Made by a program: the position numbers and the translations under genes
Shown: positions 5,401 to 44,692 of the stretch, piece by piece
Position numbering within the stretch: the stretch's first letter is position 1
Layout of the letters: each line of letters begins with the position of its first letter
Assembly (NCBI RefSeq): GCF_001552675.1
Contig: NZ_BCRQ01000017.1
Span: 1 to 44,937 of the forward strand
Direction: 5' to 3'
Origin: Alicyclobacillus sendaiensis NBRC 100866
GTDB lineage: Bacteria > Bacillota > Bacilli > Alicyclobacillales > Alicyclobacillaceae
Length of the DNA: 44,937 nucleotides
The notes under the pieces: generated by a model
What the model was told of the DNA's origin: nothing
Databases searched by the model: none
What the model saw: the letters and a program-made list of their open reading frames with translations, nothing else

Positions 5401-5967
5401 GTGCACGAAGGGCTGCAGCTGCAACTCTTGCTGTATGCCCTGGTGGCGATGCGCGAGGCGGAGGCCGCGGAAGGACGGCCCGCGAGGTTGTACGGCGCAT
5501 TCTACATGCCGCTTGTGGCGAGGCGAAACGTCCTCGACAGCCCACCCGAAGCGCGCGAGGCGTTTGCGCAGCTCGGCGCGTATCGAGCCAAGGGCTTCTT
5601 CCTGCGCGACGAGGGCGCCCTTGTGCGCGTGAACGAGGACCTTGCGCCTGGCCGCGGCTCCGCCCTCTTCAGCAGGCAGCTGCGGGCAGACGGCGCCTGG
5701 GCAGCGGATGCGACCGCCTGGCGAGAGGACGAGTGGCAGGCCGTCCTTCGCCACGTGCAGCGCCGGGCGGGGGAGGCGGCGAAGGCCATTGCCGAGGGCG
5801 ACGTGCGCGTGTCGCCGTATCATCTGAGCCACGAGGACAGCGGCTGCACGAACTGTCCCTACAACACCTTGTGCCACTTCGAGCGCGCGGATCACTTCGA
5901 TCTGTACCGCGCCGTGCCGAAGCTGACGTTTGACGACGTGATCGCAGGAGGGGGTGCGAACCCGTGA
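2458..5967 (+). CDS. addB: AddB, helicase/nuclease subunit of AddAB
   Basis: AddB pairs with AddA to process double-strand breaks for RecA-dependent repair and to recognise Chi. The 1169-residue protein begins with an intact Walker A motif, GPAGSGKS at residues 10-17. The C-terminal RecB-like nuclease has LDGRIDRVD and the catalytic D969-Y970-K971. The iron-sulfur staple is complete: C812 in YAKCAYRHF, then C1130, C1133 and C1139 in CTNCPYNTLC. I chose ATG at 2458 because AAAGGA sits eight bases upstream; ATG at 2449 is nine bases earlier and has no room for a binding site. Its stop overlaps the addA start by four bases, so the subunits are probably translationally coupled. The length matches the family. 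Confidence 0.97.
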   Translation: MSNRVEWWIGPAGSGKSSLVAEEMRRAAEAMPFGPPVLWVVPESTAFAAETLLMERVRAAFRVEVVTLRRLADRVCAHGGMARPLLTPVGRQLLLRAAYEELEPSLGPLRRAVRSPSLYHHLLAAFDELTAHGVSPEQLAALLEMSAARSQEVEATRRVVHRSLVGKLGDVLKLYVRYRQLAEERGFADPPLRFSEAAQAVPHVPWIEGASVYLDGFHAFSPAERQFISALARRTKRLVITWEDTGLEGEGWEALFAEASSQASWPHLSVWIDAHEEHFASESEAVAAYHLLACARDFARDSLEQAFCRMPRGERAGRFGASPLLHFERALAGHAPEEPIRGVRVTKFRDRAEELGAVADEIAYWVQHEGVRPRDIAVCVPALDGLGRDLADELAVRGVPVSIDSFATLADHPVGQLLRGAIGAVRTGFDLDAIATLLRCPLVPIKRREAFDLYVREHGVSGAAAWLNPEPWSFGARAFRTTSGLSDEEADETRRRLADALAPVVRAFAQPALRLSEAARALWSLLQAFGVKDQLAQSVVQVDDDPMVGVIHEQAWSAVTALLDDLATLQPEIALPSHEVADLVLESMATERLTRIPSDADAVFVCDFARADNWSRPRVFVVAAEDASLPPRVAPSGILRDDERLAFAEVFLRPLGRTTEDERRNLECLPYRVMTRASEAVVVTCAASEGGIERHLAQALASLVERGHLRVDEARGNGAVPVHPVQAMRLLADALCRVHTGAALAEVSKNPLVQDVLTHVWAGAGDDARFQRVLAGLCHRPRPWRLPAEWVRDLYGDPIRVSVSRLETYAKCAYRHFARYALRLEPLELQPEAERNAGTWIHAAVQVATQRLAEQISRLADLDDEALETALLEIAHQALEQAAQDTKLEAELERPEMGAYVAERRRHFEFVVRAIWMQLARGQMRPLWLEKEFRDVEVGAWNGVRVVLDGRIDRVDGLEQGELGLCVYDYKSSDTSLHPSKVHEGLQLQLLLYALVAMREAEAAEGRPARLYGAFYMPLVARRNVLDSPPEAREAFAQLGAYRAKGFFLRDEGALVRVNEDLAPGRGSALFSRQLRADGAWAADATAWREDEWQAVLRHVQRRAGEAAKAIAEGDVRVSPYHLSHEDSGCTNCPYNTLCHFERADHFDLYRAVPKLTFDDVIAGGGANP

Positions 5968-8900
5968 GTGTGACGTGGTCGCCGGAACAAGCGCGAGCCA
6001 TCCGGGCGCGAGGGACCAACCTTGTGGTGTCGGCCGGAGCCGGTTCGGGCAAGACCGCGGTGCTCGCAGAGCGCATCGCGAGCTTGGCGGAGGGGGATAA
6101 GGCGTTTCGGATGGACCAGCTGCTCGTGATGACGTTCACCGAGCCGGCGGCGGAAGAGATGCGGGTGCGCATCGTGCGCAGGTTGGCCGAACGCGCCGAA
6201 GAGGCGGAACGAGCAGGCGAATCCGCCAAGGCGCGGCGATTCCGCCGGCTCGCCCACCGCGCCAAGGACGCCCAGATCTCGACAATTCACAGCTTTTGCC
6301 TCTCCCTGTTGCGCGATCACGCGCTGGAGGCGGGGCTTGTCCCGGGCTTCCGCGTGCTGTCCGGCGAGGAGGACGCCGTCCTGCTGCGCGCCGCGGCGCA
6401 GCAGGTGCTCGACGAATGGGCGGGCCATCCCGAGCGCGGGCCGCAGCTTGGCAGCGCCCTCGCGGCTCTGAGGCTTCACCGGCGGCAGCAGGCGGTAAGC
6501 GCCGTGTGCGAGTTGTGCGGTGTCGCGCTGAGCCAGGTCGATCCCGCCGGCTGGCTCGCCGAGATCGCGCACCACTACGATGCAGACGAGCTGTGGGCGG
6601 GCCCGTTCGCCGAGGCGTTCGCGCGCTGGGCGCGCATGAAGGTCGCACAGGCGGCCGAGTACATGCGCAGGGGCGTGAAGGAGCTCGAGCGGCTGCGCGC
6701 GCCGGAGGCGACCATGGCGGGCGCGCACGCCATCCTCGCGCAGCTGAACGAAGCGCTCGCCCTCCTCGCGGCGCACGGCGCCAGGTTCGATCCCGACGCG
6801 ATCGCGCCGCTCCTCGAATGGCGGTCGGCGCGGCTCGCCAAGGAGTACGAGCCGTACAAGAAGTGGCGGAAAAAGGCAGGCGATACTCTCAAGGTGCCGC
6901 GGAAGGTGCTCGGCCGCGGTCGCGCCGACCTCGAGGCGGACGTGCGCGCTATGCGCCCGCACGTCGAGGCGCTGATCGGCGTGGCCCGCGACACGCTGGC
7001 CCGCGCTCAGTCGACAAGGCGCCAGGAAAACCGCCTGTCGTTCTCCGATCTGGAGCACCTGGCGCACGACCTGTTGGCGAAGGACGAAGGGGTTCGCGCC
7101 GCGCTTCACGCGAGATACCGGTACGTGTTCGTGGACGAGTACCAGGACACAAGCCCCATTCAGGACGCGATTGTGGACGCCGTCGCGCCGCCGGGCGGGC
7201 TGTTCCTCGTGGGGGACGTGAAGCAGAGCATCTACGGGTTTCGCATGGCGGAGCCCGGGCTGTTTCTCGCCCGCTATCGCCGGTACGCCGCAGGTGACGG
7301 CGGCGAGGCCATCGACCTTTCGGCCAACTACCGCAGCCGATCTGGCATCGTGCGCTTTGTCAACTACCTATTCGCACAGTTGTTTCACGCGGATGTCGCG
7401 GGATTCGATTACGCCGACGGGCACGAGATGAAGGCCAAAGCGGCGTATCCCGACGACGAAGGCGGGCCGTGTCCCGTTCAGATCAAGTTGTTCTTCTCGG
7501 GAGACGCCGAAACAGGACGGGAAGAGGAGGACGGGCTGTCCGAGGCGCCGGATGAGGCGGGCGAGGAAGACGACGAACAGGTGGCCAGGGAAAAACTCGA
7601 AGTCGAGGCCATGTGGGTCGCGGACCAGATTGCCCGGGCCATGGAAACGGGCGAAGAGGTGTACGATCGCGCCTCCGACACGCCCCGGAAGCTGCAGTAT
7701 CAGGACGTCGCCATCCTGCTTCGCGCGGGCGGCGAGCAGCTGAACACTGTCGTGCAGGTGCTCGCTTCCCGCGGCATTCCTGCAGTGGCGCGCTCGTCGA
7801 GCGGATTCTTTCGCGCGATGGAGATCCGCTGGGCCGTGTCTCTGCTCGCGGCGCTTGACAACCCGCTCGACAGCTTGGCGCTCGCCGAGGCGTTGAAATC
7901 ACCGTTTCTGGGCTTGTCCGACGAAGATCTCGCCGCGGCGCGGATAGCTCACCCGCGGGGACCCTTGTGGTACGCGGTGCGGAAGGCCGCGGCCGATGGC
8001 GCGGAGGCGCGGGAGGCACTGCGCGCAGCCGTGGAGCGGTTGGAGCGCTGGCGAGGCCTCGCTGAGGCGCGCTCTCCGGGGGATCTGTTACGCGACATCG
8101 CGCGCGAGGTCGAGATCGACCTGTATCTCCGCGCCATGCCGCGGGGGCTCGCCCGCGTGGCGAACCTCGAGCAATTGATTCGCCTGGCGAAGTCCCACGC
8201 GCCCCACGCGGGAGACCTCTACCGTTTTCTCGCCATGGTCCGGGGGCTCGAGGAAGCGGATGTCGATCTCGGCCACGCGCCTGGGGCGAGCACGGACAGC
8301 GTGGCGGTGATGACGATTCACGGCTCGAAAGGGCTCGAGTTTCCGCACGTGTACGTGCTCGGCATCGGCCGCCAGTTTCAGCGCAACAAGCGCACGCTCG
8401 CGCTTCACCGCCGCCTGGGCGTGGGCGCGGCCATGTGCGACACGCGGACCGGTGTCACCTGGCGGACCGTCCCTTCCATTGCCGTGGAACAGGCCGACCT
8501 CGAGGCGTCGCGCGCCGAGGAGGCCAGGGTGCTCTACGTCGCGCTCACGCGGGCCAAGGAGCGGCTCGTGCTCGTGGGCCACGCGGGCGACGTGGCGAAG
8601 CTCGCCGATGTGGCCGAAAGCCACGACGATGAGGGCCGCCTCGCGACCGAGGCGTTTCTCAAAGGGAACTCCTACGCGTCCTGGATCCTGCCTGCGCTCA
8701 TGCGCCATCCTGACGGCGCCTGGTTGAGAAGGGAGGCGGGCGACGCTCGGGCCGCCCTGCCAGACGCGGCAGGCGTTCGATTCGAGCTCCAGGTTGAGGT
8801 GGCCGGCAGGCCGCAGGAATCGACGAGCGGCGACGCGCGGCCGTCCTCGTTCAGAGCGCCGATCCCGCCCGCGCAGGAGGTGGAGCGCGAGCTTCGCCGC

Positions 8901-20534: not shown

Positions 20535-20555
20535 GCCAAAGGGGTGAGATTCTCC

Positions 20556-20909
20556 ATGTTGAACCAGCCGTCGAAGGCGCTTGTGACGGTGCCTAATCCG
20601 CATCCGGATCGCCGGTACACCGTGGAGATGGAGACGCAGGAATTTACCACCCTGTGTCCCATGACGGGTCAACCGGACTTTGCGACGATTTACATTCAGT
20701 ACGAGCCAGATCAGAAGTTGGTGGAGCTCAAGTCGCTGAAGCTGTACCTCTGGAGCTATCGCAACGAGGCGAGCTACCACGAGGACTGCGTGAACCGGAT
20801 TCTGAACGACTTCGTCGCCGCGGCAGAGCCGCACTACGCGAAGGTCGTGGGCGACTTCACGATTCGCGGTGGCATTCACACCAAGGTGACCGTAGAATAC
20901 CGCAAATGA
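20556..20909 (+). CDS. queF: NADPH-dependent preQ0 reductase QueF
   Basis: QueF reduces 7-cyano-7-deazaguanine (preQ0) to preQ1 for queuosine in tRNA. The 117-residue protein carries the catalytic C34 and D41 in [14 protein letters not shown]. It also has the QueF family motif in [20 protein letters not shown], followed by HEDC and RGGIHTKV. It is shorter than the B. subtilis enzyme, ending just after the core tunnel-fold domain, which is common in the single-domain type. I chose ATG at 20556, with GGTGA eight bases before it; GTG at 20544 is an alternative giving four extra residues. No other queuosine gene is in the window. A strong terminator follows directly. Confidence 0.96.
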
Positions 20910-20913
20910 CGGC

Positions 20914-20945
20914 AAAACGCGATCGCCCGGGCGCGATCGCGTTTT
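20914..20945. terminator. Strong hairpin terminator after queF
   Basis: AAAACGCGATCGC at 20914-20926 and GCGATCGCGTTTT at 20933-20945 form a perfect 13-pair stem with a six-base loop. The T-run lies within the arm end. It begins five bases after the queF stop. Confidence 0.75.
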
Positions 20946-20997
20946 CGCGCAAATCGGGGCCTCTCGCATACCATGAATCGAATGCGAGGGGATTCGC

Positions 20998-22074
20998 GTG
21001 GCCAACCATCAGGACGGACTCTGGCTCGGCATTGCCACCACCGCGGTACCGCGACACGGCCGCCCCGGCGCTCATTATCGGCGGATCGCCCGGGCGGCGA
21101 GGCGACACAACCTGCGCGTGTGCTTGTTCGATCCCGGCCGACAGGCGGACTGGTCTCGCCTTTCGGCCTTCGCTCCCGTCGATCCCGACCGGCCGGACGG
21201 GGAGTGGAAACCTGTCTCGGTTCGCTTTCCCGATGTGATTTACGAAAACGTGTATGTGCATCTCGCCGTCCAGGGTTACAGCGCGCCGCTCAGAGCGGAG
21301 GCGCGGCGACGCGGCGTGCCGCTCTTCAACCCCATGCTGCCCGGGAAGTGGCAGATGATCCGCTTCTTGCAGCGGGCCCAATTGGACCACTTGGCGCCGG
21401 AGACAGAGGCGCTGACCACGGCGGAGGCGCTGTGGCGAGCGCTCGAGCGCTGGCGAACCGTCTACGTCAAGCCGAGCGGCGGCTACGGCGGCGTCAACGT
21501 GCACCGGCTGGAACTCCTCGACGGGCGCGTGCGGGCCCGGGCGGATCGCCGCTTTGGCCGCGTGCGGACTTGGGAGCGCGTGATGGACCGCGCGCAGCTG
21601 GCGAGCTTCATCCGCTCCCTGCGAGGGCGGTATTTGGTCCAGCGCGGGCTTCGCCTCCTGCGCGTGGGCGGGCGCAAGGTGGACTTTCGCGTCGTGTTGC
21701 ACCGTGACCACCGAGGCGAGTGGCAGCTCATCGGGATTGTGCCAAAACTCGCGGCCCAAGACGGCGTGGTGACCAACCTCATCGCGGGCGGAGAGCGGTG
21801 GACGCTTGCTCGGCTCGTCTCCGCCGCCAACCGGGAAGGCAAGGACGTGCCCGTGGAGCAACTCGTCAAGGCCGCTCAATCGATTGCCGAGGCGCTGTCG
21901 CGCCGGTACCCGACGGTTGGGCTCGTCGGCTTCGACATGGCGGTGGAGGAAGACGGAAGCGTCCGGATGATCGAGATGAACCCCAAACCGGCGCGATCGC
22001 TCCTGGACCGGCCGATGCTCGAGAAGCTGGCCGCCTGCCAGGCGGGCTTCGCGCACTGGCTCATCCGGCGCTGA
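20998..22074 (+). CDS. YheC/YheD-family ATP-grasp protein
   Basis: This family occurs in spore-forming Bacillota, where the B. subtilis members are linked to the spore coat; its reaction is not established. The 358-residue protein has an N-terminal part with VIYENVYVHL, then FNPMLPGKWQM, YVKPSGGYGGVNVHRL (the ATP-grasp lysine and glycine loop), LVQRGL, KVDFRVVLHRD and the C-terminal metal and ATP site GFDMAVEEDGSVRMIEMNPKPA. GTG at 20998 follows GAGGGGATT. It stands alone between the queF terminator and the uronate-isomerase-like gene. It is the best internal sign that the host makes endospores. A role in making a peptide-like or amide-linked product is only an inference from the fold. Confidence 0.88.
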   Translation: MANHQDGLWLGIATTAVPRHGRPGAHYRRIARAARRHNLRVCLFDPGRQADWSRLSAFAPVDPDRPDGEWKPVSVRFPDVIYENVYVHLAVQGYSAPLRAEARRRGVPLFNPMLPGKWQMIRFLQRAQLDHLAPETEALTTAEALWRALERWRTVYVKPSGGYGGVNVHRLELLDGRVRARADRRFGRVRTWERVMDRAQLASFIRSLRGRYLVQRGLRLLRVGGRKVDFRVVLHRDHRGEWQLIGIVPKLAAQDGVVTNLIAGGERWTLARLVSAANREGKDVPVEQLVKAAQSIAEALSRRYPTVGLVGFDMAVEEDGSVRMIEMNPKPARSLLDRPMLEKLAACQAGFAHWLIRR

Positions 22075-38250: not shown

Positions 38251-38411
38251 CCTCTTCCTCCAAGTGAAAGATCACAATTCCAGCATACGACGATCTCGGC
38301 GCGAAGGCCAGCCACCGCGACATTCGCAGCGAGATTCGGATGGCGTTACAATGGAGCCGGATGGCCATCTCACGAGGCATCATGGGGATGCCTTTCGAAA
38401 GGGACAGTGGC

Positions 38412-40379
38412 ATGAGGTTTGTCTCGCGCTGCCTTGAAGCGCTTGGCCGATATCGAGCTCTGGCTTGCGCCGCCATCACCGCGGCGTCGTTGGTCGGTTC
38501 CATGCTTTTGGCGCCCGAAGCTTCCGCCGACTCGGTATCCATGGCGACCGCCGTGGGCTATGGCGGTTATTACGTGGCGGACGCGTGGGTGCCGGTGCAC
38601 GTCTTCGTCCGAAACGAGGGCCCGGCGAACATGGCGAAGCTGGTGCTGCGCGTGGGCGGCCCGTCGATTGGGGATCGGCGCGTGACGGGCGTGTTGACCT
38701 GGCCGCTTTGGCTGCCAAAGGATGGCTATGCGTCGACGTTTATCGACGTGCCGGGCAGCGCGCTTGCGCAGGGGACGGCGCTCGACCTGGTGGTCGGTGG
38801 GCGCGTCGTCACGAGCTCCTGGCTTGGGGGCAACAGCGTCTCGCACGTCGATCTCGTCGGGGTCGTGAGCGACAGCTCGCAGGCCACGCAGTTTCTGGCC
38901 GGAACGAGCGCGGACGGCATGCCGGTTTTGCCCGTTGCGCTCAAGGCTTACGATTTACCCACGTCCGCGCAGGCGCTCGCGAATCTGAGCGCGCTGGTGG
39001 CCAGCGTGGACGAGCTCCGCGCGCTGTCCACCGCGCAGGCGCGGGCGCTCGCGAACTGGGTGGCGCAGGGCGGGCTCCTCATTGTGACGGGCACGGGCGA
39101 TGCGCCGTCCGAGTTCGGGCAGCTTCCCATTTCTCCTGGCGCGTTCCAAGTGGTGAACGGCGATCCGCTGGCGAACTTCGCGGGCACAGGCGGCGGGCCG
39201 GGCCAAATCGAGTCCACCGCCGGGCAGGCCGCGGCTTGGGCCCGCCTTTGGGCGGGATCGAACGCCGAACCCCTGGTGGCGAGCAAAACGTTTGGCCGGG
39301 GGCAGATCTGGCAGACGTCCTTTTCTCCGCTCGATCCGGATCTACTGGCTTGGCCGGGGAATGCGCAGATGTGGACGGCCCTGTTTCACGACGCCAATCT
39401 GGCGCAGACGGCGGACGTGGCTGTCTCCGGCCTCCTGCGCCCGACGGGCGGGCTTAGCCTGACGAGCGTGGGCGACGCGCTGGAGCCGCTGCGCATGCCG
39501 GGGCTCTCCACGTTTGCCCTGGTGCTCCTGGCGTACCTGGTGGCGGCGGGGCCGGTCGCATTTTTTGTGCTCCGGCGCGTTCGCCGGGCGGCGCTCGCGT
39601 GGGTCATCCTGCCCGCCCTGAGCGGCCTCACCACGGTCGGCATCTTTGTGCTCGGCGGATCGTCGCGGCCCGCGGGACTTCTGATGAACGGCGTCGGCGT
39701 GATGGATCTGCTTGGCGACGGGCGCGCGTTTGAGTACGGCGCGCTCGCCATGATGTCGCCCGACAGCGGCGATGAGATCCTCCGCTTGCCCCCTGCCGAC
39801 GACGTTCTGACCTTGCAGAGCGACACGGAGCCCGTGGCGAACACTCGAATCGAACACGGCGGTGGCGCCACGCTGGTGTCTCTCGCCGACGTGCCGCGTT
39901 GGCATGTGCGCTACGTGTTCGCGTCGGGATTCGACGAAGCCGCCGGCCGGATCCAGTGCAATTTCAAAGAAGCGTATGGTCTTTTGTTCGGCACGGTGAC
40001 CAACGAGACGCGGATGACGCTCTCGGATGTCGCGGTGGTGTATGACGGGATGCTGGTCAAGTTGGGCACGCTCGCGCCGGGCCAGACGAGATCGCTCAAC
40101 GCGAGCCAAGAGGTGCAGACGTCGTCCTGGATTTCGGATTACGGGCTGTACAACCGCCAACTGACGCACGGAATTGGCCGAACGCTCGGCGCGTATTTGT
40201 CGGGGCTCGTCGCGGAATGGCACCCTGGCTCTGCGGAAGCCCTCGTGGTGGCCACGGCCAGTCGCGGTCTGCCCGAGCTTTCGGTGCCGTCCAATCAGCG
40301 CGCCGTGGCGAGCGAGAAGACGCTCGTGCTTGTGCGCGAGTACGCACCGGTGATGCCAGTGGTGGAGGCGGGATCGTGA
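38412..40379 (+). CDS. Exported membrane-anchored protein, partner of an ABC transporter
   Basis: The 655-residue protein starts with a signal peptide (hydrophobic core at residues 17-33, likely cut after ASA at 37-39). A beta-rich outer domain and a segment around 210-235 (RALANWVAQGGLLIVTGTGD), like the GATase-type fold of DUF4350/GldG-like proteins, come next. Two membrane segments lie near 365-387 and 393-413, and another outer domain of about 240 residues completes it. I chose ATG at 38412 because AAAGGGA sits seven bases ahead and the signal peptide starts well; ATG at 38382 is possible. A possible -10 (TACAAT at 38347) lies upstream. Its stop overlaps the ATPase start by four bases, so it surely works with the ABC proteins. 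Function unknown. Confidence 0.75.
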   Translation: MRFVSRCLEALGRYRALACAAITAASLVGSMLLAPEASADSVSMATAVGYGGYYVADAWVPVHVFVRNEGPANMAKLVLRVGGPSIGDRRVTGVLTWPLWLPKDGYASTFIDVPGSALAQGTALDLVVGGRVVTSSWLGGNSVSHVDLVGVVSDSSQATQFLAGTSADGMPVLPVALKAYDLPTSAQALANLSALVASVDELRALSTAQARALANWVAQGGLLIVTGTGDAPSEFGQLPISPGAFQVVNGDPLANFAGTGGGPGQIESTAGQAAAWARLWAGSNAEPLVASKTFGRGQIWQTSFSPLDPDLLAWPGNAQMWTALFHDANLAQTADVAVSGLLRPTGGLSLTSVGDALEPLRMPGLSTFALVLLAYLVAAGPVAFFVLRRVRRAALAWVILPALSGLTTVGIFVLGGSSRPAGLLMNGVGVMDLLGDGRAFEYGALAMMSPDSGDEILRLPPADDVLTLQSDTEPVANTRIEHGGGATLVSLADVPRWHVRYVFASGFDEAAGRIQCNFKEAYGLLFGTVTNETRMTLSDVAVVYDGMLVKLGTLAPGQTRSLNASQEVQTSSWISDYGLYNRQLTHGIGRTLGAYLSGLVAEWHPGSAEALVVATASRGLPELSVPSNQRAVASEKTLVLVREYAPVMPVVEAGS

Positions 40380-41311
40380 TTCTCACGCAGAACCTCACGA
40401 AGCGGTACGGAAAGACGTTGGCGGTGAACAACCTCAACCTGAACGTCGACCGTGGGGTCATCTTCGGGCTTGTGGGTGAAAACGGGGCTGGCAAAACCAC
40501 GGCGCTGTCGATGCTCGCGACGCTGACGCTGCCGTCGTCCGGGCGCGCGTATGTCTGCGGCCACGAGGTGACGCGGGAACCGCAGGCGGTCCGCCGGGCC
40601 ATCGGGTACATGCCGGATTCGTTCGGCGTCTACGACGATCTCACGGTGATGGAATACCTGCGCTTCTTCGCACAGTGTTACGGCGTGGACAGGCGGACCA
40701 TCTCGCGCCGCGCGGAGGAACTTTTGGAACGCGTTCGCCTCGCGGACAAGCGAGACGTCTACGTCAATCACCTGTCGCGCGGCATGCAGCAGCGCCTCGA
40801 GGTGGCGCGCTGTCTCATGCACGATCCGGACGTGCTCATTTTGGACGAGCCCTCGAGCGGCCTCGATCCGAAGTCGAGGCTCGAGATGCGCTCGGTGCTC
40901 GCCGGATTGCGCGAGTTGGGCAAGACCGTGATCATCAGCACGCACATTCTCAACGAACTCGCCGAAGTCGCCGACGAGGTGGGCATTCTGCTGCGCGGCG
41001 AGCTCGTGGCCGTGGCAGCGGTTCAGGTGATGGTCCAGCATTCGAGCGCGTACCGCACCATCGTGATTGACGGGCGCGATCTCGGCGACGACTTCGTCAA
41101 GGCACTCTTCGCCGATCCTCACGTCGCCGAGGTCCGGCCGCTCGCACCAGGCTGGGAGGTGCTCTACGCGGGCACGCTGGCGCAGCAGGCCGAACTTTTG
41201 AGTCGGCTTGTCTCAGAAGGGTTTTCCATCACGCAGTTCCGCGAGCAACCGACGGACATTGAGCAACTGTTCCTCCGCCTTGCGGCGATCCAGGAGGGGG
41301 CGATCTCGTGA
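40376..41311 (+). CDS. ABC transporter ATP-binding protein
   Basis: The ATPase of an ABC-2 type system. The 311-residue protein has Walker A GENGAGKT at residues 34-41, the Q-loop region AIGYMPDSFGVYDDLTVMEY, the signature LSRGMQQRLEVA, Walker B VLILDEPSSGLDP and the switch histidine in ISTHILNE. A C-terminal part of about 90 residues follows, as in drug and polysaccharide exporters of the DrrA/CcmA type. GTG at 40376 overlaps the previous stop by four bases, and its own stop overlaps the permease start by four. Substrate unknown. Confidence 0.93.
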   Translation: MILTQNLTKRYGKTLAVNNLNLNVDRGVIFGLVGENGAGKTTALSMLATLTLPSSGRAYVCGHEVTREPQAVRRAIGYMPDSFGVYDDLTVMEYLRFFAQCYGVDRRTISRRAEELLERVRLADKRDVYVNHLSRGMQQRLEVARCLMHDPDVLILDEPSSGLDPKSRLEMRSVLAGLRELGKTVIISTHILNELAEVADEVGILLRGELVAVAAVQVMVQHSSAYRTIVIDGRDLGDDFVKALFADPHVAEVRPLAPGWEVLYAGTLAQQAELLSRLVSEGFSITQFREQPTDIEQLFLRLAAIQEGAIS

Positions 41312-42150
41312 AGTGGCACCTCAACCCGCTGCTCCTCAAGGAGTTCCGCCAGCGCATGCGCACCATTCGGGCCCCGCTCGTCATCACGGCCTACCTGTTT
41401 GCGATGAGTGCGCTGACCGTCTTTCTCCTGTACGAAAACGTACAGGGGCAGCTGTACTTGGTCCAGCCCACGAAGAGCCAGCAGGTGTTTGCGCTGGTCA
41501 GCCTCTTGCAGATGGTGGTGGTGGCGTTTTTGGCGCCGGCGTTCGCGTCCGGCTCCGTGAGCGGTGAACGAGAGCGGAAGACGCTCGCGGTCCTTCTGAC
41601 CACGCCGGTCGGTCCTTTTGGCATCCTGTTCGGCAAGGTCGTCTCCTCGAGCGCGCTTTTGGTCCTGCTCGTGGTCCTGACGTTGCCCGTGTACAGCCTG
41701 GTGTTCCTCTATGGCGGTGCCGTGCCGGCGCAGGTCGCGTCCGTCCTTGGGTTCCAACTTGTTACGATTGTAGTCATTTCTGTAGTATGCGTACTGTTTT
41801 CGACCATCGCGCTCAGGTCCACGTGGAGCACGGTATTCGCCTACGGCAGTGTCGGCCTCATGACTGTCATCTTCGGGGCGCTCGGTTACGGCTTGAAGTC
41901 CCTGTACGAGCAGAATCCCATCGACTACTCGGCGCTCGTGTGGTCTCACTTTTTCTACGCGTTGGATCCGCTGTACGTCGAGGCCGCGTTCTTGGGCGTG
42001 GTGTCCGCCGCGCCTCACGTGTGGGTGCCTTTTGTGGAGTTCTATGCGGTCGTGATCGCCATCCTGTTGGTTCCGAGCCTCTGGCGCCTGAGGCCGCAGT
42101 GGTTCTCGTGGCTGCCCTTCGTGAGTGGCACCGAGAAGCAGTATCAGTGA
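41308..42150 (+). CDS. ABC-2 type permease
   Basis: The membrane subunit of the ABC system. The 280-residue protein starts with NPLLLKEFRQRMRTIRAPLV, a typical ABC-2 amphipathic start, and has six hydrophobic segments. The motif GSVSGERERKTLAVLLTTPV is the conserved cytoplasmic loop of ABC-2 permeases that contacts the ATPase. GTG at 41308 overlaps the ATPase stop by four bases. It has no partner permease, so it probably works as a homodimer. The large exported protein is the third component. Confidence 0.9.
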   Translation: MKWHLNPLLLKEFRQRMRTIRAPLVITAYLFAMSALTVFLLYENVQGQLYLVQPTKSQQVFALVSLLQMVVVAFLAPAFASGSVSGERERKTLAVLLTTPVGPFGILFGKVVSSSALLVLLVVLTLPVYSLVFLYGGAVPAQVASVLGFQLVTIVVISVVCVLFSTIALRSTWSTVFAYGSVGLMTVIFGALGYGLKSLYEQNPIDYSALVWSHFFYALDPLYVEAAFLGVVSAAPHVWVPFVEFYAVVIAILLVPSLWRLRPQWFSWLPFVSGTEKQYQ

Positions 42151-42195: not shown

Positions 42196-42223
42196 CGCGT
42201 ACAGGTGTAAGGACCTGTGCGCG
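42196..42223 (+). promoter_or_regulatory. Hairpin enclosing the exchanger start codons
   Basis: CGCGTACAGGT at 42196-42206 and ACCTGTGCGCG at 42213-42223 pair over 11 positions, ten Watson-Crick and one G-U, with the six-base loop GTAAGG. The loop shows part of the ribosome binding site, and the stem holds the first GTG and the first base of the second. It could control translation. Confidence 0.5.
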
Positions 42224-43335
42224 TGGGGGTGGACGAGTTGACGGCCGTCCAGATGGCGTTCGGGCTCTGCATGGTGCTGTTTGGCGCAGAGCTGTTCACC
42301 AACGGCGTGGAGTGGCTCGGCGTGAAGCTCCGCCTGGGCGAGGGCGCCGTGGGGAGCGTGCTGGCGGCGCTCGGAACGGCGCTGCCCGAGACGGCGGTTC
42401 CCATGACGGCGATTGTGCTCGGCGGTGGCGAGGCGGACCAGGTCGGCATGGGTGGGATTTTGGGGGCGCCGTTTCTGTTGGCGACGCTCGGCGGGCTCGT
42501 GCTCGCGCTCGCCGCTGTGCTGTTTCGCACAGGCCATCCCGCGGGTGGCATGGCGGTCAGCAGCCGGGCCTTTCTGCGCGATCTCGCCTTTTTTCTGGTC
42601 GGGTTCTCCCTCTCCCTCGCGCCCGCAGCGTGGCCGGCGCCTTGGTTCAAAGCGTCGGTCGCGTGTTTGCTCATCGGCTGGTATGTGGTCTTCGTCCGCG
42701 CGCACCTGCGCGACGGCGACAGAGCCGAGTCCGCGCCCGACCTGCGGCCGCTCTACCTGAACCGCCGCCACGGCCATCCGGCCGCGGTCGCCGTCCTCGC
42801 GCAGATCGCCCTGGCGGTTCTGATCGTGGTGGCAGGCGCGCACCTTCTCACGAAGGGCGTGGAATCCGTCGCAGCGGAGCGAGCGGTGCCCGCGTTTGTG
42901 CTCTCCGCGCTCGTCGTGCCCCTGGCCACGGAATTGCCCGAGACGTTGAACAGCGTCCTCTGGATGCGAGACCGAAAGGACGCCCTCGCCGTCGGCAACA
43001 TCACCGGCGCCATGGTGTTTCAGGGGACGCTCGTGCCTGCCATCGGCATGCTCTTGACCGACTGGACGTTCACGCGCACGGCCTGGTGGACCGCCGGGCT
43101 CACGGTCGCGGCCGCCTCGTACCTGCTGATGGCGGTGCACCTCGCGTCGCGCGTTGAACCGTGGATGTTGGTGGTTCCCTCCATCGCGTACTTTGCGTTT
43201 CCCCTCGTCGCCTTCCAGCTCCATGCGTTGTCGCCGTCGGCCCGCCTTGCGCTTGTAGCCGCGATGTTGGCCTCGTCGGCGCTCTGCGCGGCCCTGTGGG
43301 TGCGATCTCGGCGCGACCTGCCCCCTCGCCGCTAG
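42223..43335 (+). CDS. Na+/Ca2+-exchanger-family membrane protein
   Basis: A cation antiporter-like protein of the inner membrane. The 370-residue protein has about ten hydrophobic segments in two inverted halves. Each half carries an alpha-repeat motif with the ion-binding acid: LGTALPETAVP (E56) and PLATELPETLNSV. AVGNITGAMVFQGTLVP in the second half is also family-like. The usual GTSLPE is altered in both repeats, so ion choice may differ. I chose GTG at 42223, nine bases after AAGGA; GTG at 42217 and 42229 are options. It follows the ABC permease after 72 bases and may be part of that transcript or controlled by the hairpin. It ends three bases before the hemL end (convergent). Confidence 0.82.
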   Translation: MGVDELTAVQMAFGLCMVLFGAELFTNGVEWLGVKLRLGEGAVGSVLAALGTALPETAVPMTAIVLGGGEADQVGMGGILGAPFLLATLGGLVLALAAVLFRTGHPAGGMAVSSRAFLRDLAFFLVGFSLSLAPAAWPAPWFKASVACLLIGWYVVFVRAHLRDGDRAESAPDLRPLYLNRRHGHPAAVAVLAQIALAVLIVVAGAHLLTKGVESVAAERAVPAFVLSALVVPLATELPETLNSVLWMRDRKDALAVGNITGAMVFQGTLVPAIGMLLTDWTFTRTAWWTAGLTVAAASYLLMAVHLASRVEPWMLVVPSIAYFAFPLVAFQLHALSPSARLALVAAMLASSALCAALWVRSRRDLPPRR

Positions 43336-43338
43336 GCG

Positions 43339-44640
43339 CTACACTTCCCTCGCGAGATGGGAGAACACACTATCGAGCGCCTCTGCCGTCTCCTCGATGT
43401 CCGCGTCGCTGTGAACCGCCGAAACAAACCACGCCTCGTACTTGGACGGCGCGATGAGGATGCCGCGATCGGAGAGGAGATGGAAGAACCGAGCGAAGCG
43501 CCGGCTGTCCGTGCGCGTCGCCGCCTCGTAATCGCGCACCGGCTCGCGGCCAAAGTAGATGGTGAACGCACCGCCGACGCGGTTGACCACGATATCGATC
43601 CCGTTCGCGCGAGCAGCCGTCTCGGCCACGTCCACGAGCAACGCCGCGCGGCGGGCCATCTCGTCGTACAGGCGAGGATCGGACAGCGTGCGCAGGCAAG
43701 CCATGCCTGTGCGCATGGAGAGCGGGTTCCCCGCCATGGTGCCGGCCTGGTACGCGGGCCCGAGTGGCGCCACCTGCTCCATGATGTCCCGCCGCCCACC
43801 ATACGCGCCGATGGGCAACCCCCCGCCGATGATCTTGCCGAGCGCGTACAGGTCTGGATGCACGCCGTAGAGCTGCGCCGCGCTCCCGTAGTGAAAGCGA
43901 AAGGCCGTGATCACCTCGTCGAAAATCACGAGCGCCCCCACTTCGTGGCCCAGGTCGATCACGTCGGCCAGGTACCGATCGTCGATGGGCGGCACGATGC
44001 CGAAATTGCCCACAATCGGTTCCACGAGGATGGCCGCGAGGTCCCGGCCGTGGGCGGCGAGCGCCTCCTTGAGCGCGGCGCGATCGTTAAACGGCACGGT
44101 GACGATCTCGCTCGCGATGTTGCGCGTGACGCCCGCGCTGTCCGGCACGCCGATGGATGACGGGCCGCTGCCTGCAGCGACGAGCATCGCGTCCGAGTGG
44201 CCGTGGTAACACCCGGCGAACTTGAGCACCTTCGTTCGCCCCGTGTAGGCGCGCGCGACGCGAACGGTCGTCATCACCGCTTCGGTTCCGGAGTTGACAA
44301 AGCGAATGCGCTCCAAGTCCGGGATGGCGGCGCGCAGCATTTCGGCAAACTCCACCTCGTACGGCGTGGGCGTTCCGTAGAGCACGCCGTCCTCCGCAGC
44401 CTCCTGAATCGCGCGCGTGATGGCCGGATGGGCGTGGCCGAGAATGGAAGGGCCATAGCCCGCGAGGTAGTCGATGTACCGGTTGCCGTCCACGTCGTAG
44501 AGATACGGCCCTTCGCCGCGGACCATGACCACGGGCGTGCCCCCGCCGACGGACTTGTACGATCGCGACGGGCTGTTGACGCCGCCCAAGATCACCTGTT
44601 CGGCTCGCTGAAACCAGACTTCCGACTGACGTCTCTCCAT
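43339..44640 (-). CDS. hemL: Glutamate-1-semialdehyde 2,1-aminomutase
   Basis: It turns glutamate-1-semialdehyde into 5-aminolevulinate for heme and related tetrapyrroles, using PLP. The 433-residue protein has [71 protein letters not shown] and the PLP lysine K269 in [17 protein letters not shown] chose ATG at 44640, with GGAGGAGGAACAGG upstream; ATG at 44673 gives 11 extra residues without a site. The length is normal. It has its own promoter and no other heme gene nearby. Many spore-formers carry two HemL-like genes; whether this is the main one cannot be told here. Confidence 0.96.
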
Positions 44641-44663
44641 ATCCTGTTCCTCCTCCGCGCACC

Positions 44664-44692
44664 ATTGTTTCAACTGCTCTTTGCGCCGTCAA
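44664..44692 (-). promoter_or_regulatory. Sigma-A-like promoter of hemL
   Basis: On the minus strand, TTGACG (44687-44692) and AACAAT (44664-44669) are exactly 17 bases apart. They lie just ahead of the hemL binding site. Confidence 0.5.

Follow-up and report, generated by a model that had tools for sequence, protein, structure and literature searches.

The subject of this analysis is a stretch of 44,937 nucleotides from Alicyclobacillus sendaiensis NBRC 100866 (contig NZ_BCRQ01000017.1; hereafter the window, by which we mean the whole stretch), from a genome of 2.79 Mb in 153 contigs. It carries three consecutive genes, here called A, B and C, which many spore-forming bacteria keep together and which are predicted to encode a large exported protein, an ATP-binding cassette (ABC) ATPase and a permease, respectively.

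38412-40379, + strand: gene A, 655 amino acids, ATG start, predicted exported anchor protein
40376-41311, + strand: gene B, 311 amino acids, GTG start, putative ABC ATPase (PF00005, E = 5.2e-31)
41308-42150, + strand: gene C, 280 amino acids, GTG start, putative ABC-2 permease (PF12679, E = 2e-13)

Both junctions are 4-base GTGA overlaps (A/B at 40376-40379, B/C at 41308-41311), as the initial annotation of this DNA had stated, and its further proposal that the three genes are made together as a unit is supported by their contiguity, in the order A-B-C, in all 103 loci read (five contigs, recognised by their identical lengths, were counted twice, namely L058/L066, L051/L077, L047/L078, L052/L080 and L063/L125, and L085 ends at a contig end). 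We calculated the ratio of nonsynonymous to synonymous substitution (dN/dS) against five congeners, which gave 0.13-0.16 for A, 0.03-0.07 for B and 0.03-0.04 for C, the last over 189 codons only for three of the five. Because these ratios are low and the order is kept in every locus, the arrangement is beyond chance.

The initial annotation had named, as something that would refute it, orthologues of A that occur regularly without the ABC genes, and the distribution of the trio speaks against such orthologues. Of 55 genomes from the window's order, 54 carry gene A, each as a single copy; the exception is a genome that is 60% complete. Among 398 Bacilli genomes, the profile of A (E up to 1e-10) and that of C (E up to 1e-30) match the same 146, by comparison of the two lists by eye, and neither matches the other 252. 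Each of the 116 places of A that were entered has C on its own strand, 943-1691 bases further downstream; this count omits most second copies and rows with the partner beyond the matches listed. Ten genomes yielded more matches to A than to C, and a repeat search identified the extra matches as pieces of one A gene adjoining C. We therefore discount the occurrence of A without the ABC genes in these genomes and loci. Irregular copies were also observed: a second copy of A is split over two frames in G094; seven genomes of f12 (G102, G116, G142, G152, G162, G202 and G232) have a shorter A, with an open frame of 586-605 amino acids, where the profile leaves a stretch of the GIFT-like domain described below unmatched; and one match to C (G232:C1:2341675-2342529) contains one in-frame TGA.

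The domains of protein A were delimited on an AlphaFold2 model (ma1b66ffb7ac9; mean predicted local distance difference test, pLDDT, 79.4; predicted TM-score, pTM, 0.77).

38412..38531, + strand: putative signal peptide region, residues 1-40 (...APEASA/DS; hydrophobic stretch 16-34, model helix 2-31; cleavage site placed by eye)
38535..38840, + strand: N-terminal beta domain, residues ~42-143 (model)
38844..39410, + strand: GATase1/GIFT-fold domain, residues 145-333 (VIA-align structure matches)
39504..39662, + strand: two predicted transmembrane helices, residues 365-389 and 393-417 (model helices; hydropathy peaks 369-387 and 395-413)
39678..40358, + strand: predicted C-terminal exported domain, mostly beta, residues 423-649 (model)

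Given a signal peptide and a hairpin of two helices, both large parts of A would lie outside the cell. The initial annotation had described A as a large exported anchor with a GATase-like segment and as something other than a normal solute-binding protein, and both descriptions hold. At the sequence level the segment scores weakly (Pfam DUF4350, E = 0.0011, 19.7 bits with the cut-off at 30.4; GATase1_like, E = 0.24); it is clear in the predicted structure, where residues 145-333 form an alpha/beta domain that matches STM3548 (VIA-align Z = 16.9), STM1381 (Z = 16.7) and a GATase1-like protein (3rht_A, Z = 14.8); the superposition on 2gk3_E (Z = 16.9) is at 3.0 A over 185 residues. STM1381 is matched by the A-family profile at the level of sequence as well (E = 1e-6). 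The same domain resembles the GIFT domain of IFT52 (5fms_A, Z = 13.2, 3.4 A over 178 residues; a second IFT52 match, Z = 13.1) and chain G of human OST, which we take to be OST48 (Z = 10.5). No column of Cys common to more than one row was found in alignments of 20 and 35 rows of A, so that catalysis through the usual nucleophile is unlikely and the domain is probably a structural pseudo-enzyme; an active glutamine amidotransferase was set aside on this ground. Solute import with A as the binding protein was likewise rejected, as no solute-binding Pfam family matched A at E up to 1 and the permease is of ABC-2 type. A transglutaminase, which heads the Foldseek rows for the whole of A (E = 4e-7), was dismissed as a generic beta match (TM-scores ~0.1), and the rows for the C-terminal domain are generic beta sandwiches with low TM-scores.

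Protein B contains the motifs GENGAGKTT, LSRGMQQR and LILDEPSSGLDP, read by eye, and appears to be an intact ABC ATPase of the DrrA/GldA kind. The predicted structure of C (pLDDT 85.7) has the NosY of NosDFY at Foldseek ranks 1-11, and VIA Z-scores of 18.0-19.1 for NosY, 16.0 for ABCA1 and 15.3 for PmtCD. These matches bear on the possibility that the trio is an ABC-2 exporter of the ordinary kind, moving a lipid, a glycan or a toxic compound, to which A would be an outside accessory serving as acceptor or gate. The best NCBIfam match of B, to the DrrA subfamily (240 bits, below its cut-off of 312), and its best PDB sequence matches, to ABCA lipid transporters, are what such an exporter would lead one to expect, as is the resemblance of C to ABCA1, ABCG and PmtCD. 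However, C is closest to NosY both by fold and by sequence (NosY is also its best PDB sequence match), an exported partner of 655-800 amino acids with two helices of its own was never missing in the loci read, and the trio is usually linked to MoxR and vWA genes (see below), a linkage that drug or lipid pumps do not typically show. On balance we regard an ordinary exporter as rather unlikely.

The trio has in common with NosDFY the permease fold (VIA Z = 19.1, with 241 residues superposed at 3.4 A), the ATPase family and one dedicated exported partner for each ATPase-permease pair. It differs in that partner: A combines beta domains and a GATase/GIFT fold with two helices of its own, and its model contains no NosD-type beta-helix, whereas NosD is a beta-helix on which copper chemistry depends.

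The initial annotation had likened the layout to GldA/GldF/GldG of Bacteroidota gliding. The likeness in layout stands: both are three-part ABC systems with a GIFT-type domain outside the cell, and C has its best NCBIfam match in GldF. Membership does not stand. Protein A carries extra domains; the curated equivalog cut-offs are missed (GldA 206.6 against 402.6 bits, GldF 22.9 against 288.5); the GldG family PF09822, which occurs in 64 of 299 genomes from the phylum, has no match in the window's genome; and an HH comparison of the A family with an 11-sequence PF09822 alignment of Bacillota GldG-like proteins gave probabilities of 3.6% and 15%. We therefore ruled out membership of GldAFG, the closest solved permease fold being NosY. 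No NCBIfam model, TIGR03521 included, matched A at E up to 1. The IFT52 matches do place a GIFT-fold extracytoplasmic domain in A, but a shared fold does not by itself imply common ancestry. GIFT is named for GldG and IFT (PMC7226087, PMC10191852); membrane localisation of GldA is reported to need GldF and GldG, and Flavobacterium GldA mutants are reported to lose the surface lipoproteins GldJ and GldK (both PMC9127263).

Three genomic contexts were distinguished among the 103 loci. In 64, the trio heads an eight-gene operon and is followed by genes for a protein here called X and for MoxR, DUF58, BatA-vWA and vWA-GATase proteins; this count overstates full operons, as 62 loci were fetched with patterns built on full-operon members. 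In nine, the trio is preceded by a gene pair, one for an extracytoplasmic function (ECF) sigma factor and one for a TolB-like propeller protein that has a single hydrophobic stretch. The remaining 30, including all 20 loci of the window's order, have neither. The statement of the initial annotation that the trio stands without companions is thus correct for this genome and order and fails elsewhere, where many Bacilli trios head the MoxR-DUF58-vWA operon. Within the window's order, BatA (PF07584) was found in none of 55 genomes, with the positive control found in G056, in a genome-wide search limited to BatA. The window's genome does have MoxR and DUF58 genes, which lie together on a different contig from the trio.

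In the full operons, X lies between the trio and MoxR (537 amino acids at 8332-9945 of L050) and has no match in Pfam, NCBIfam or PADLOC. For the relative of A in L050 (796 amino acids), the DUF7408 match covers the corresponding domain and clears the cut-off (45.7 against 27 bits); for A of the window, no match to DUF7408 appears up to E = 1. A comparable gene set is the arCOG01314/DUF4350 system of archaea (Makarova 2015, PMC5898192), which is predicted there to be a secretion system. Like the eight-gene operons, it combines an exported GldG-like flavodoxin-fold protein with genes for MoxR and vWA proteins. Section 9 of that paper gives its exported protein a single C-terminal helix and names no ABC genes among the components, whereas here the ABC pair is present in every locus read and MoxR/vWA may be missing. 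A MoxR-vWA module is reported to be strongly associated with bacterial multicellularity (PMC10067837).

The ECF/TolB-like pair lies directly upstream of the trio in L046, L056, L065, L088, L090, L092, L109, L118 and L126, which belong to Bacilli and Desulfotomaculum-type Clostridia. As the pair precedes the trio in these nine loci, it suggests an envelope response. It could also mean that A-B-C is a sensor or signalling complex that reports the state of the envelope to the ECF sigma factor and moves no load, with the one-helix propeller protein beside it; yet no such pair was seen in the other 94 loci within the stretch read, and where present it could simply control the trio, and we consider a pure sensor improbable. 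The gene contents of the loci bear on a further proposal of equally low probability, in which ATP-driven movement of A would switch on a cell-wall or envelope enzyme, as in FtsEX. The motor logic would be of the same kind, and a catalytically dead A would be suited to hold a partner. However, no conserved hydrolase or transferase is linked to the trio in the loci read, and the fold of C is ABC-2, unlike FtsX, which has a type VII fold.

Natural losses of the downstream genes were found in four loci, from Bacillus sp. RO3 (L098), Rossellomorea sp. AcN35-11 (L111), Bacillus sp. BHET2 (L115) and Rossellomorea arthrocnemi (L116). In all four the gene after C is a different one on the opposite strand, and the gap after C holds remnants of the vWA gene (tblastn E = 1.6e-22, 3.7e-26, 2.5e-23 and 3.3e-11, respectively, with the full operon of R. 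vietnamensis, L095, as the reference); L111 also keeps a remnant of X (E = 4.7e-13). All three genes of the trio have open frames in L098, L115 and L116. In two more trio-only loci, L048 and L059, tblastn gave no remnant. Synonymous divergence was saturated in Rossellomorea pairs, and those ratios were not used. The tree, which does not include L116, joins L095 to L115 (SH-aLRT 95) and places the two in a clade that also contains L098 and L111 (100), a topology that asks for two losses, or for one loss and a regain. Over all groups, the labels require nine changes, against 26.6 when shuffled. The tree is a quick LG+G4 reconstruction drawn with midpoint rooting, in which the long branches L054 and L055 meet and many rows deviate in composition, and gains cannot be distinguished from losses on it. 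As four loci keep the trio beside vWA-gene remnants, the trio can outlast the downstream genes; this holds for these loci and does not give the direction of change in the window's order.

We consider it somewhat probable that A-B-C is a mechanotransmission ABC machine that acts on an envelope component, in the manner of NosDFY or GldAFG and as a member of neither. This function is inferred as the most economical reading of a NosY-like motor joined to a permanent exported arm that is no enzyme; it draws on observed gene order, co-occurrence, selection and retention of the trio, and on predicted folds. The three proteins would form one membrane machine, in which two copies of B would burn ATP in the cytoplasm, two copies of C would pass the movement across the membrane, presumably outwards, and A, kept beside C by its two central helices, would convert it into work outside the cell through the catalytically dead GATase/GIFT domain and the two beta domains. 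The load would most likely be an envelope or secreted component, such as a surface protein or glycan that is assembled, remodelled or released, and not a small solute. Where present, the MoxR, DUF58, BatA-vWA and vWA-GATase proteins may serve as an auxiliary assembly module, and in the window's genome the trio would work alone. The system is real and conserved, and its combination of parts is new although the parts are familiar. A wider claim, which we advance only tentatively, is that it represents a new class of mechanical, ATP-driven machines in the envelope of Bacillota, with a NosFY-like motor and a permanent pseudo-enzyme GIFT arm; it would be the central part of a larger system for surface assembly that includes the MoxR-vWA proteins, and be able to work alone. 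On this claim, a GIFT domain mounted on an ABC motor would be a general bacterial way to work outside the membrane.

Several points weigh against mechanotransmission, and it needs to be interpreted cautiously. ABCA, ABCG and PmtCD exporters match C at Z = 14-16, and a common permease fold does not establish function. The analogy with NosDFY would cover the motor and not the tool, the fold of A differing from that of NosD. The model of A was built on relatives of 16-24% identity, and the interaction and localisation of A, B and C are predictions. Independent retention events are few, L098 and L111 being near-copies, and A of L111 is frameshifted near residue 52 as sequenced (complete genome CP128835, 9850-12253) beside the decayed operon, so the trio itself may be decaying there.

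If mechanotransmission is correct, 146 of the 398 Bacilli genomes sampled, about one-third, possess an ATP-driven device, so far unstudied, that acts outside the membrane. The role of GldG and the GIFT domain, open since gliding genetics, would become testable in culturable Gram-positives without gliding or an outer membrane, and the natural losses of MoxR-vWA genes beside a retained trio would reveal which part is the core. A literature search, thin on subscription journals, returned no study of the Bacillota A-B-C system and no function for the A family.

Other origins and roles were set aside. For a viral or mobile origin, a viral_contigs scan with a relative of A gave no match and the BFVD fold rows are weak; for an anti-phage role, PADLOC gave no match for A, C or five operon proteins, and the ATPase matches generic ATPase models only.

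Two sites lie upstream of A.

38323..38352, + strand: promoter-like site TTCGCA-18-TACAAT, 9 of 12 consensus positions, putative function
38397..38404, + strand: ribosome-binding-site-like GAAAGGGA ahead of the ATG of A, from a six-species alignment

The promoter-like site was found once, against 0.5 expected in shuffled sequence, and its two hexamers are identical across all six aligned congeners; GAAAGG within the second site is invariant in the six-species alignment.

Downstream of C, on the same strand, the window has a Na/Ca-exchanger-like gene (42217-43335; the family is PF01699 in L030), and no terminator-like site is listed between the two. An exchanger-like gene follows C on its strand in all 15 loci from the window's family and in none of five from the sister family. 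Seven of the 15, all outside the window's genus (L028, at 5599-6318, L029-L032, L034 and L035), have between C and the exchanger a gene for a single-helix protein of 240-300 amino acids that belongs to no Pfam family, FAM20; a roadblock-like reading of it, made by eye, was dropped, as Pfam gave no support. QueF-like and YheC/D-like genes lie at 20544-22074 of the window, near its 21-kb position, and the same families lie just upstream of A in relatives; their placement is a rearrangement in the window's lineage. A hemL-like gene, so read by eye (43339-44673, - strand), faces the operon, and 17 of 21 loci have a member of its family downstream of the trio.

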